Shown here one piece after another: positions 858-57,904 of a stretch of 64,000 bases of DNA. The notes beneath the pieces are model-generated. The model was not told the origin of the DNA, made no database searches, and was given only the letters and a program-made list of their open reading frames with translations. Position numbers and translations under genes: made by a program. The first letter of the stretch is position 1; the number at the start of each line of letters is the position of its first letter. Source of the DNA: Fragilariopsis cylindrus CCMP1102 (Eukaryota; Bacillariophyta; Bacillariophyceae; Bacillariales; Bacillariaceae); contig FMBT01000307.1 of assembly GCA_900095095.1 (NCBI GenBank), positions 372,001-436,000 on the forward strand. The letters run 5' to 3'.

Positions 858-3421
858 TTACTTTTTTTTCGCTGCTAGAACTGTTTTTGTTTCTTTACCC
901 TTCTGGAAAAACGATGGTCCTGATTCCCTTACAAACCCTTCATCGGCCTTCGCAAAAGCTTCTTCACTCGACTCAAAATGTCTCGTCTTCCATTCTTCAT
1001 TTAATCTCTGAGCAACGTCGTCCATCCTAAATAAGACAGTCATAAAAGAAACAAGACACAAAAGGTTGAATAACTAAATTCCGTTTTCAAAAAAATCATG
1101 GCAAACGCAGTAATGATAAAGAAGTCAATAATCACTCACCTCCCCGTTGGGTAATAGGAATATAGATATGCAAACTGAGCTGGGAAAATTGCATATTGCA
1201 AAATTGGCTGATTACAAGAAAAAATAGTTCTTTTGGTAAGTATGGTGTGGAACTACAATTGCTATCTGAATTTTGCCCGTTAATAGTTATAAATGATGTG
1301 CTTACCTTCCAAAAGAACGTCAGATAACTCTTCCAAGACTTTCCAAGATCGTCATGAGGACTCCATGGTGTGTCAAATGCGTTGATGATCAAGTCACTGG
1401 CCAATCGACTCATAAATTGCACAGCGCTCACTCTTAAAATACGTTTTCTATAAAAATCTTGTAGAGAATCTTCGATCTTCTCGGTAGATCTTACGTTCGC
1501 GAGAGTTTCAGTAAGAACATATGCATCCTCGATCGCTTGGCATCCTCCCCTGAACGGAAAGGAAAAAAGTCAGTTAGTCATCGGTCTCAACAACAGCAAC
1601 AACAACGAAGTGCAATATGGTAGTACTCAATAACAGTTCAAATTTTGGATAAAACACTTACTGTCCTAAATTGGGCATCATTGCGTGAATGGCATCACCC
1701 ATGAGGACAACATTACCATCTGCCCAACTTCGAAAAAATTCGGGCGCTCTATCGTATAGATCACGTTGCTCAACGGATTCAGGTGGGGTTGAATCTAGAA
1801 CTGTCATAACTTCGTCAGTCCATCCCTCGTGCAGGGATTTGATGTAATCGACGAGATTTACTTCCGGATCCTCTTGGTCTTCTCTTGTCGAGCCACCCCA
1901 TCCGGATGGAGCCTTTCTGGTACCAGGTGGGAGCGCAAAAAAAGCATACCATTGAATACGGCCACCTCCGACATCTGAAGTTACAAAGTAGCGCTGCGGA
2001 CCAATGTATACCTTATATCCTGTTTCGTAGTAATCATCGGTTTTAAGGAGTGTCTCTCCAGCAAAGACTGTGTACCCCGAGTAGTCACACCCTTGTACTT
2101 TTTTTCCATTTTTATTCTTAGACTTGACTCCACCCTCTGAGTACATTTGATTTCGGACTGCACTCCAAATCCCATCACAACCCACAAGAATATCGAATTC
2201 GGTGTTTTCCCCGTTTTCTAACGTAACTGTGACTCCATTGCCTTTTCCGTGGTTTTCGTATCCAACAACTGGGTTACCATTTTGAATAAAATCTGGTTTA
2301 ATTTGTTTGCATTCGTCCAACAAAATTTCTTGAAGATCTGGTCGGTCGATTACTCCAGTGTAAGCTAGTTTATTGGATTTAAGAAAAAATAGTGAAATGA
2401 ATATCAGATAAAGAAACAGAAGGGAAGAAAAAAAGCGCATCGTTCCATTTCGATGTAATATACATCAAATCGCGTGACCAGAGGATAAAATTTTGTAACA
2501 CAATGGTGTGAATGTTAATTCTCACTCAAAAACAGCAACACTTACGCAGACCAAATAAATCCGCACACTCTTTCAATGGGAACTTGACAAACCAATCGGC
2601 AGGAGCATCGGGATTCCAGAGGTAATCAAGAGAATCATTAGTCACTCGAAAAGATCCATCTGATCTGAGTCCTACAAAAATGTATCATTAAACGACATGA
2701 GAGAATTTCTCGGTGAGGGTTTTTGTTGTTCGCCGTCGGACAAAAAAAAAGGCAAAAATTGAAGATAAATCTGTCCGTACCATCTTTAATCCCACAAGTT
2801 CTAATTCCTGTAAAAGTAAATTTCTCCATGACACGATCGAACGTTCGGTCGTCAATTTCTTTCAATACCGATAATGCATTAGAAGCAAATTGAATTGGAC
2901 CTCCAAACCGAGCAAATTGTGATGTCTTTTCATACACCGTCACGTCAAAGCCCTTTCGATTGTAGAATTAAGGGATTCAGAGGACGATAGCAAAAAATAG
3001 AACAATAAAGTAATAACATTATGTGAGTCCAACAGAACAAGTTGTGTGTATTCACACAAAATCCATTCATCGCTCCTACACCCCCAAAAGGAGAGAAAGA
3101 ACAAATCCCGCACGGACGTACTTTTTTCAACATGTACAGGGCAGCAGTCAATCCACCGACTCCACCACCAGCAATAGCAATTTTCAATGTACGTCCAGGT
3201 CTAGCTGGAAGACCTAATTTTTCGTATTCGGGAACGTCAACTGATTCGGTGTCATCAACTGACGCGGCGGATAGTTGATGATGAAAAGATGACGACACTT
3301 CATTATTAGAAGTAATCGGGGTGGTGCGATGATAAATTTGAGGTGTTGATTGAAAAGCAAAAGCCTTCCCGTGGTTAGCTACACCAAGTGCAGCAAGAAG
3401 ACAGCATGCAATGATATTCAT
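858..3421 (-). CDS. ZEP: zeaxanthin epoxidase (plastid, FAD-dependent)
   Basis: Seven exons on the minus strand join cleanly: 3421-3122, 2952-2781, 2671-2546, 2364-1662, 1549-1306, 1207-1140 and 1026-858, giving 593 residues. The enzyme adds epoxide groups to zeaxanthin in the xanthophyll cycle, using FAD, reduced ferredoxin and O2. The N-terminus is a signal peptide with an AFAF cleavage motif, as in proteins sent to secondary plastids. The FAD dinucleotide fold is seen as IAGGGVGGLTAALY (about residue 88), the second FAD motif as LVGCDGIWSAVR, and the C-terminal GDAIHAMMPNLGQGG followed by QAIEDA is typical of ZEP. All six introns have GT-AG ends and correct phase. It is divergent from the CSP41-like gene with a 443-bp shared upstream region. 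Diatoms have several ZEP paralogues; I cannot tell which one this is. Confidence 0.9.
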
Positions 3422-3864: not shown

Positions 3865-5435
3865 ATGTTTCGACTTGCTTTCTTATTCGTCGGCCTTTTA
3901 GCAGTTGCAATTGGAAATGCTGCTGCCTTCGCTCCCATAAATTGTAATGTATTATCCAGTACGAATCTTGCCACCAAAACGAGACTGAACGCAGCGGCAT
4001 TGATTGTGCAGAACAAAGGTGGTGGTCATGGAGAGCTTGGTACGCACACTGTCTTTTCTTTATTTTGGGGTATCGGTGTATTTTTTTCTTTCAGAGTTTG
4101 TTGCTCACACTGTTGGGTTTCTTCTCAATTTTTGTTGTTGCTGTTGCTGTTGCTGTCGTCGTCGTCGTCTTTCGTTGTTGGTGCTTTCAAACTGATTTAT
4201 TGACGTCGCTGTCGTGCTTTGCGCTATATATATATATATGAATCTTGAATTAAAATAATCAAAAATCCAGGATTTCAACTCGCGAAGAAATTGTCTTCGA
4301 ATGACAAGATTGATTCTATAACTATATTGCAAGATGATTCGTGTAATATGAAAAGTGAGCCGTTTCAATCATACGCCTCGGACCTTTCAGATGATGTTAC
4401 GGTTGTCTATGCAAGATTGGGGGACGAATCGGTCGATGCTAAAACTATGCAGAAATGGTTAGGAGGAGATGATGCCCAGTTCGAATATATTTATGACAAT
4501 TATTCCAAAGGCCCAGAAGGGTCGAGTAAAGCCCTTTTAGATTGTGTGAAGAATTGGGGATGCTGTAAGCTTTATACATACGTTTCTTCGGCAGGGGTGT
4601 ATCAACCAACAGATACTACTCAATTTCCTATGGGAGAAGATAGTACCCCTATCAAAGAATCGTCAGGCCAAGCCAAGATGGATAATTATGTATCTGTTGA
4701 ATGCAATCTTCCGTTAGTATCCTTTCGTCCCCGTAAGTGTAATACTACTGCACATCTCACGATAACGTTTAAAAAAACGTAAATATATCCTTTGTTGTGA
4801 CAGATACTGAACTGAACTGAACTGAACTGAACTGACTTTTTTTTCTTTTCCCCCGATCACAACGATATCCGTCTTCCAAATAAGAATATATTTATGGTGA
4901 AAAATCTAATAAGTATGACTACATTGATTGGTATTTCGATCGTTTAACTCGTAGTCTTCCATTGCCGATCCCAGGTCCTGGAACGCAGAAAGTTTCACTA
5001 ACAAATTCGCAAGATGTTGCATCAATTTTTGCTGCATCACTTGACAATGAAGAAGCTGCTGTAAAGCAACGCTTTTTTAATTGCGGTACCGATAAACTTG
5101 TTACATATGACGAAGTGGCTTATTTGTGTGCAGAAGTAGCTGGTATTCCAAAGGAGGAAGTAAAAATCGCACACTATTCAGGCGATGATTTGGGAAAAGG
5201 TAAATTCCCATTTAGACTCACTGACTTTTACGTGGCACCAGATATGGCGAAAGAAAAGCTTGGTTACCAGGGAGCGATGAATGATCTGAAAGATGATTTG
5301 AAGTGGTACTATGAAGATTATAAGACACGTGGAAAGAAAACTATTGATTTTACAAAAGATCGAGAAATTATCGTCGCTTCGAAATCGTCGGAAGATGTTA
5401 ATGTTTATGACCAATACATCACAACCGAACAATAG
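3865..5435 (+). CDS. CSP41-like NAD(P)-epimerase-fold protein, plastid
   Basis: Three exons (3865-4039, 4271-4732, 4885-5435) splice in phase to a 395-residue protein. The first ~22 residues are a signal peptide followed by AAAFAP, the bipartite plastid-targeting motif of diatoms. The body is an atypical short-chain dehydrogenase/epimerase fold: GGGHGELGFQLAK replaces the usual glycine-rich dinucleotide loop, and YVSSAGVY is the Ser/Tyr strand. The C-terminal part (IPGPGTQKVSLTNSQDVA, then FNCG) is typical of the chloroplast stem-loop-binding proteins CSP41a/b, which bind and stabilise plastid mRNA and associate with plastid ribosomes. RNA binding here is inferred from the family. Intron 1 has a TTG/CTG/TCG triplet run and intron 2 a five-fold ACTGA tandem. 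Divergent from ZEP. Confidence 0.8.
4804..4828. repeat. ACTGA pentanucleotide tandem (5 units) in CSP41-like intron 2
   Basis: Five consecutive ACTGA units lie in the second intron of the CSP41-like gene. They look like an ordinary short tandem repeat with no visible function. Confidence 0.8.
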
Positions 5436-56331: not shown

Positions 56332-57208
56332 GTTATTACCAGTGTATGCTGTTGAATTATCTGATTTGACGCTTGATAAAGTTTAAAAGTGTTATTAGGG
56401 CCCGGCCCTACCACTCGTCCGTCGGCATCAAACATTCGAAATTGCTGACTATGTCAATTTTCTTTGACCCTCCTGTGGGAGTAAGACACGAGTTACTAGT
56501 GAATGACCAGCATAGCAGTACAGTACGTGTAGGTACGTAGTTTAACAAGATTATCATAAAATCACCATCATATTCTGAACTAAATATGAGTTAACTTTAG
56601 AGGATAAAGATCAATTGAAGGAAAAGAAAATGCACGCTGATGACATCTGCTGATTCTAATCGTGCAATCAGATATTTCTGAATCCTATATTTTCGTAGGT
56701 TATTGCTAGCTAATTCACAGGAAGATTGAATCTCAAACTCTCCATATATAGCATTCAAGAATAAGACTACAGCCAAGATTTGCTATTGTTAATTTGAATC
56801 AATGAAACTGTAGATTCGAAATGAATTAGCTAGTTCTTGCCCCCACTGATTTTCCTTACACAAAACTATGTTGGTTTATCTCGAATTGATGATTTTACCA
56901 TACAGGGATTACGTATGCACCGAGACAGGCATCTACATCTATATACCTATAAAATTACAAGATTTTTCGAATGAAATGATGCGTTAAATCTAAACGCATT
57001 AACTCAAACAATACAATATCCATATTCGATAATTAATTAGAATAAACATCAGATCTTATATGATTTTTACAGTGTTTTCAAAAGAGTCCACCGAAAAAAG
57101 GAAAATGACATACTGCATTGTATTCATTACCTATTTCTTTGATTCTTTGTCATTAACTGTTGACCAGTGCAATACCGATGTTTATCGTTAATATCGAAGA
57201 TCCACCCA
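56332..57208. other. spacer between Oxa1 and GPX, holding the GPX 3' UTR
   Basis: About 880 bp with no protein gene. It has dispersed repeat copy B at 56478-56503, followed by CAGTACAGTACGTG (56514-56527). The right-hand part must contain the 3' UTR of the minus-strand GPX gene; if that is a selenoprotein, a SECIS hairpin should be here. A short perfect hairpin (AATGAATAC...GTATGTCATT) occurs at about 57102-57127 but lacks the SECIS core. Confidence 0.45.
56478..56503 (+). repeat. dispersed repeat copy B (GGAGTAAGACACGAGTTACT...)
   Basis: Second copy of the word at 47187-47214, with several substitutions; TGAGTCA is changed to CGAGTTA here. Confidence 0.5.
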
Positions 57209-57904
57209 CTACTCTTTGATAACCTCTTTGATAACCTCTTTGATATCTTCTTCCATGAGGCGCTCAATATCAGCTTCTAAATCCGTTGGTACAGAAACTT
57301 CACCATTCTTACTTACAAGGAATTTCCCTCTAAAGTTCCACATCGGATCACTTGCTCCTGTTTCGTCCTTGAAAAACTTCCACACCTCTGGTGCCTCGTC
57401 ACCCTTTATCTTCCCTAACTTCATCAAGATGCCAGGAAAGTTTTTTGATTTGGCGAATTCTTGGATCTCTTCATCCTTTTCAAATTCCTGCCATCCAAAT
57501 TCTCTGCTCGGGAATCCAAGAATGGATAGCTTATCTCCACCCCATCGCTCATGCAGACTTGCGAACTGAGCATACTCGCGTTTAGTAGCACCTTTTGTTT
57601 AAAAAGAGGATTATTTATTTCATTCCGAAAAAAAGAAATTTCATACGGTGAGTTTATTACAACGTGTGACGAACGCGGTCGAGTCGAAACGCAATCTCGA
57701 CAACGAATAAGAACAGAAGCAACAACGACAATGACAACGACAACGAGACCTACCTCATTTCGAGGCAACATTGGTAGCATATACAACTTTTCCTCTGAAA
57801 TCTTCCATTTTTTTTATCGAACCGTCACTCGTGACGGCGGTTAACGAATAGAAAGACGTCATTCCTTTCTTTGATGCTGCTAGCTTGGTGGAAGATGATC
57901 CCAT
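57209..57904 (-). CDS. GPX: glutathione peroxidase with in-frame TGA at the catalytic (selenocysteine) codon
   Basis: Two exons (57904-57754, 57591-57209) give 177 residues if TGA at 57757-57755 (codon 50) is read as selenocysteine. The context is exactly the GPX active site: DFRGKVVYATNVASK, then TGA, then GATKREYAQF after the intron. Selenium GPX enzymes have NVAS..UG here and non-selenium ones NVASKCG. The rest is a complete GPX: LHERWGGDKLSILGFP, FGWQEFEKDEEI, FKDETGASDPMWNFRGKF (the tetrad Trp-Asn) and a C-terminal Lys/Glu tail from a 12-nt repeat. The intron splits the codon after the TGA, with GT-AG ends. It reduces lipid hydroperoxides and H2O2. I could not identify a SECIS element by eye. 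No targeting peptide is seen. Confidence 0.85.

Follow-up and report, generated by a model that had tools for sequence, protein, structure and literature searches.

The window, a 64,000-nucleotide stretch of a diatom genome (C299:372001-436000 in the 67.9 Mb, 818-contig genome that we searched), carries on its minus strand a glutathione peroxidase (GPX) gene laid out in two exons between 57904 and 57209 (Table 1). Removal of the predicted intron, which begins with GT and ends with AG and whose splicing we infer from the sequence, would leave a coding sequence of 534 nt that is divisible by three, with a TGA as its sole internal stop and a terminal TAG ending at 57209. The first-pass annotation of this DNA had described a GPX frame with that TGA as its single break, and the spliced sequence bears this out; it had also proposed that a splice directly after the TGA restores the frame in phase, of which the phase stands and the position does not, the predicted intron starting one base 3' of the codon (TGAG/gtaggt). 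The N-terminus of the product, MGSSSTKL (57904-57881, minus strand), resembles what we take to be an N-myristoylation signal, which would presumably put the enzyme at a membrane. Elsewhere in the window, two open reading frames (2945-3421, minus strand; 3865-4203, plus strand) each begin with a signal peptide that has an AFA-type motif at its end, which we assume to be a feature of diatom plastid proteins and which points to a diatom.

Table 1. Features of the GPX gene and its putative SECIS element, in window coordinates
Feature	Positions	Strand	Details and basis
GPX exon 1	57754..57904	-	ATG 57904-57902; codons 1-50 plus one base; holds the motif NVASK-Sec
TGA taken as Sec, codon 50, catalytic position	57755..57757	-	reading frame, structure alignment, paralogues
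Predicted 162-nt intron, GTAGGT...AAAAG	57592..57753	-	sequence only
GPX exon 2, GATKRE...IKEVIKE, then TAG	57209..57591	-	frame and profile match
SECIS candidate hairpin	57069..57161	-	fold and own scans; 48-140 nt past the stop codon
5' core UGA of the proposed SECIS quartet	57150..57152	-	core scan
3' core UGA of the proposed SECIS quartet	57078..57080	-	core scan

With Cys typed in place of the TGA, the spliced product matches the Pfam GSHPx profile over positions 1-108 of 108 (E = 3.9e-25, 88 bits against a cut-off of 27). Among solved structures 41 distinct sequences matched and the nearest are GPX4-type chains; the best match (E = 1e-23) is a designed GPX4 derivative, a chain deposited as GPX4 matches at E = 1.3e-22, and GPX4 entries (9j6l, 5h5q, 2obi and others) are the closest solved relatives by sequence, beside equally ranked designed derivatives. 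Judged by sequence, this likeness is far beyond chance. The TGA codon aligns under the catalytic Sec or Cys of the GPX4-type chains, confirming the earlier claim that it marks the active-site residue of the family, and the catalytic Sec/Cys, Trp and Asn stand in the same setting as in GPX4. Three of the four members of the catalytic tetrad (Sec/Cys, Gln, Trp, Asn) are present as the Sec codon, Trp and Asn; unlike in GPX4, the position of Gln is held by Glu (fpsrefg vs fpsnqfg in the alignment), so that the full canonical tetrad is lacking, yet membership of the family is not in doubt. Two further differences from GPX4 are the Lys/Glu-rich C-terminal tail and the complete lack of Cys from the product once the TGA is read as Sec. 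An internal resolving Cys is therefore absent, and an outside thiol, for example glutathione, would be the likely reductant.

The same active-site codon recurs elsewhere in the genome. The GSHPx profile found nine matches, three of which (L002, L003 and L004) share the TGA codon of the window gene, in the motif NVASQ-TGA-G[AL]TQR, and are without an intron where the window gene is predicted to have one; for L004 we did not find the first exon. Aligned with the window product, L004 has 79 of 129 residues identical, L002 82 of 164 and L003 84 of 165, and synonymous sites are saturated in the comparison with L004. For the pair L002/L003, dN/dS comes to 0.196 across the 122 codons that follow the TGA and to 0.527 across the 48 that precede it. 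The protein is thus kept beyond the TGA, which argues that this is not a dead reading frame; in the window gene the in-frame TGA occupies a position known for Sec, and the protein downstream of it is conserved. A more distant GPX, split over two matches (L006/L008) and found again on C597, likewise carries TGA (NVACL-TGA-GKTR). L001 has Cys at this codon. A scan of viral_contigs matched four stretches, none of them a relative.

These comparisons bear on two readings in which no selenocysteine would be made. One is that the gene is a pseudogene or an allele in which a Cys codon has mutated to a TGA stop, or that a base was miscalled; the TGA is a single base away from TGT and TGC, and the intron is itself a prediction. 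We nevertheless regard this as highly improbable, since three paralogues share the codon, the protein is conserved past it, no further break of the frame occurs and a SECIS-like hairpin lies downstream (see below). The other is that alternative splicing removes the TGA and yields a protein without Sec, for which the proximity of the intron, one base past the codon, and the further GT dinucleotides upstream in exon 1 (three of them no more than 35 bases before the TGA) might be cited. Splicing at those upstream GTs would, however, shorten or remove the conserved VVYATNVAS stretch, and L002 and L003, intronless at this site, are open across it except for the TGA itself; we give this explanation very little credence as well.

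The search for a SECIS element downstream of the gene, which the first-pass annotation had recommended, was made with scans of our own and did find a candidate. Its helix I pairs ACAGU with ACUGU; the internal loops are UAAUGAC on the 5' side and UGAAAAC on the 3' side; helix II (AAAGA-A-UC/GA-C-UCUUU) is followed by an unpaired AAA and a long apical stem. Unconstrained folding alone yields this SECIS plan, the minimum-free-energy and centroid structures agreeing, and the folding energy by itself is only modestly unusual (MFE -18.7, z = -2.0; 8 of 200 shuffles were as stable). The Rfam model SECIS_1 (RF00031) found no match in the window at the gathering threshold or in the 3' flank at an E-value threshold, and run on the whole genome it found none either, missing the candidates of the SelT and SPS2 genes too. 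Three early scans of our own capped the length of the apical arm and for that reason likewise found nothing in the window gene; the candidate was first seen by eye and the scan then widened to a long arm, so that the widened and generic scans are post hoc. The generic SECIS rule is not specific: it gave 33 matches on both strands of the window, eight of them, the candidate included, at or below the candidate's energy, and it matched 35 of 600 shuffled flanks, four of the 600 at the candidate's energy.

A more selective pattern came from the genome itself. We drew a core (AAUGAY ... UUGA, with a long arm) from the hairpins of SelT, SPS2 and L002-L004. In L002, L003 and L004 the sequence UAAUGA[C/U] stands between helix I and helix II as in the window gene, making the 5' core loop near-identical among the four SECIS-like hairpins; the apical bulge of the L004 hairpin lacks the customary AA or CC and so, by one of our scans, do the AAUGAC ... 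UUGA hairpins of the SelT and SPS2 genes. Scanned with this core, both strands of the 64 kb window match only at the GPX gene. Six of seven selenoprotein 3' flanks match, five of which had defined the core and the sixth of which is that of the window gene; the miss is L006/L008, with no match in 1292 nt of its 3' flank. Ten of 10,000 shuffled 300-nt flanks match, a proportion that is not a clean p-value because the thresholds of the core were set after the window candidate had been seen. Across 315,250 bases of loci L001-L048, both strands included and some loci overlapping, there are nine matches: L002, L003, L004, the window GPX (L005), SelT (L027), L030, L031, SPS2 (L033) and L034, which we presume to duplicate L033 because the two scored alike. 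Each of the eight loci examined for it, the nine less L034, has a TGA at its Sec site. The SelU-like L030 and L031 had not been used for the core and so serve as an out-of-sample check; both match. Taken together, the SECIS-like hairpin likely represents a SECIS element in the presumed 3' UTR. Its closest known systems include the long-armed algal SECIS elements of Ostreococcus and Chlamydomonas; the core here is preceded by A, as in most eukaryotes, where Ostreococcus, in the excerpts consulted, usually has G (PMC2375036). As a separate observation, L002 and L003 share an identical hairpin with perfect 10-bp arms, ATGGTGTATA...TATACACCAT, some 420-455 nt past the stop in L002, in which we saw no SECIS core by eye.

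As for the machinery that would serve such an element, the genome holds tRNA-Sec, SepSecS, SPS2 and eEFSec. Thirteen of 15 genome matches to tRNA-Sec were above the cut-off, with a TCA anticodon in all eight loci scanned. The tRNA-Sec loci L009-L016 (on C69, C547, C56 and C138) and those on C678 form small tandem arrays, with a spacing of 163 nt in C69 and C547, and among three loci compared, L011 and L014 show two D-arm forms in sequences that are otherwise near-identical. L009 and L010 (C69 and C547) hardly differ, with 99.97% identity over 3086 nt, so some of the tRNA-Sec copies are probably assembly or haplotype copies. SepSecS is present as two exon matches (E = 7.4e-64), SPS2 (E = 7e-54) has a TGA at its own Sec codon, and we assign eEFSec to L042, which matches 5izk at E = 4.7e-57. 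None of the 44 genome matches to the SelB model reached its cut-off; the three best were rejected as eEFSec, being on inspection IF-2, LepA and an EF-Tu, and L042 ranked fourth. SBP2 was not recognised by inspection among five L7Ae-family matches, a set from which a divergent or intron-split SBP2 could escape. Of the machinery named in the first-pass annotation, tRNA-Sec and EFSec were thus found and SBP2 was not recognised.

Other genes in the genome also have TGA at known Sec positions. A SelT-like gene carries CVS-TGA. Two further genes, L030 (TGA at 1103) and L031 (TGA at 1462), match PF13911 and read RPG-U-VLC and SLG-U-PLC, motifs by which we presume them to be SelU; in each, a SECIS-like hairpin follows the stop codon at about 70-115 nt, and in L030 the link of the TGA to the matched exon depends on an inferred intron, since the TGA lies in another frame. 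That the organism generally reads TGA as an amino acid, for which we found no supporting point, seems the least probable explanation of all: TGA ends 6 of the 13 longer window open reading frames that we checked (some may be exon ends), and the in-frame TGAs examined sit at known Sec positions, in SelT, SPS2, the SelU-like genes and the GPX genes.

The SECIS-like hairpin, the presence of most of the machinery and the paralogues with TGA together make the window GPX very probably a genuine selenoprotein gene, in support of what had been proposed from the sequence at the outset. We are accordingly highly confident in reading it as a functional, Sec-containing GPX4-type glutathione peroxidase of a diatom, the UGA of which would be recoded via the SECIS element. 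After splicing, the ribosome would reach the UGA at codon 50; the hairpin, about 50 nt past the stop, would bring in a SECIS-binding protein together with eEFSec and Sec-tRNA-Sec; the active site would receive Sec, and translation would continue to the TAG. The enzyme would then reduce hydroperoxides via its selenol, and glutathione or another external thiol would presumably re-reduce it. By the 50-nt rule known from animal work, a stop near an exon junction spares the mRNA from decay. With the TGA one nucleotide before the junction, the mRNA should be spared if Sec insertion fails.

The Glu at the position of the tetrad Gln deserves separate consideration. It is shared by L002-L004, hence by all four Sec-GPX of the window type, and is unusual; the Cys-GPX L001 reads FPCDQFG in this region, and the distant L006/L008 GPX has Asp (FPIKDF) at or near the position. 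Exceptions at the Gln position among characterised enzymes, in the portion of the source consulted, are GPx8, with Ser, and two plant GPx, with Glu or Gly (PMC7409322), and a narrow look at the literature turned up no mention of Glu there in a diatom GPX. One could imagine that the window-type enzymes form a Sec/Glu/Trp/Asn subfamily, Cys-free in the window copy, in which the acidic side chain might modulate the selenol or the preference for a reductant, functionally distinct from a plain GPX4 analogue; we put this forward as a speculative and rather doubtful idea.

A Sec-containing GPX in a diatom is not new in kind. In the excerpts of the report on Thalassiosira pseudonana, two GPx homologues are counted among 16 selenoproteins from SECIS searches and earlier work on the Sec-containing GPx of that diatom is cited (PMC2375036); we liken it to the window gene by this description, not by sequence. 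Diatoms are credited with 20-44 selenoprotein genes and algal GPX with mainly the Sec form in the text consulted of a second source (PMC7539508), and for tRNA-Sec of Fragilariopsis cylindrus 11 non-identical predictions are given, four of them in the paper's table, in the section consulted of a third (PMC5330540). As diatom Sec-GPX, selenoproteomes and multiple tRNA-Sec have all been published, the window gene is ordinary for its kind. Routine annotation could nonetheless miss it, with a frame that stops at codon 50, an intron that begins one base on and a SECIS that SECIS_1 does not see. In the stretches examined, the genome-derived core found the SECIS candidates of the GPX, SelT, SelU-like and SPS2 genes and, apart from missing L006/L008, nothing else; this selectivity may make it useful for annotating diatom selenoproteins.
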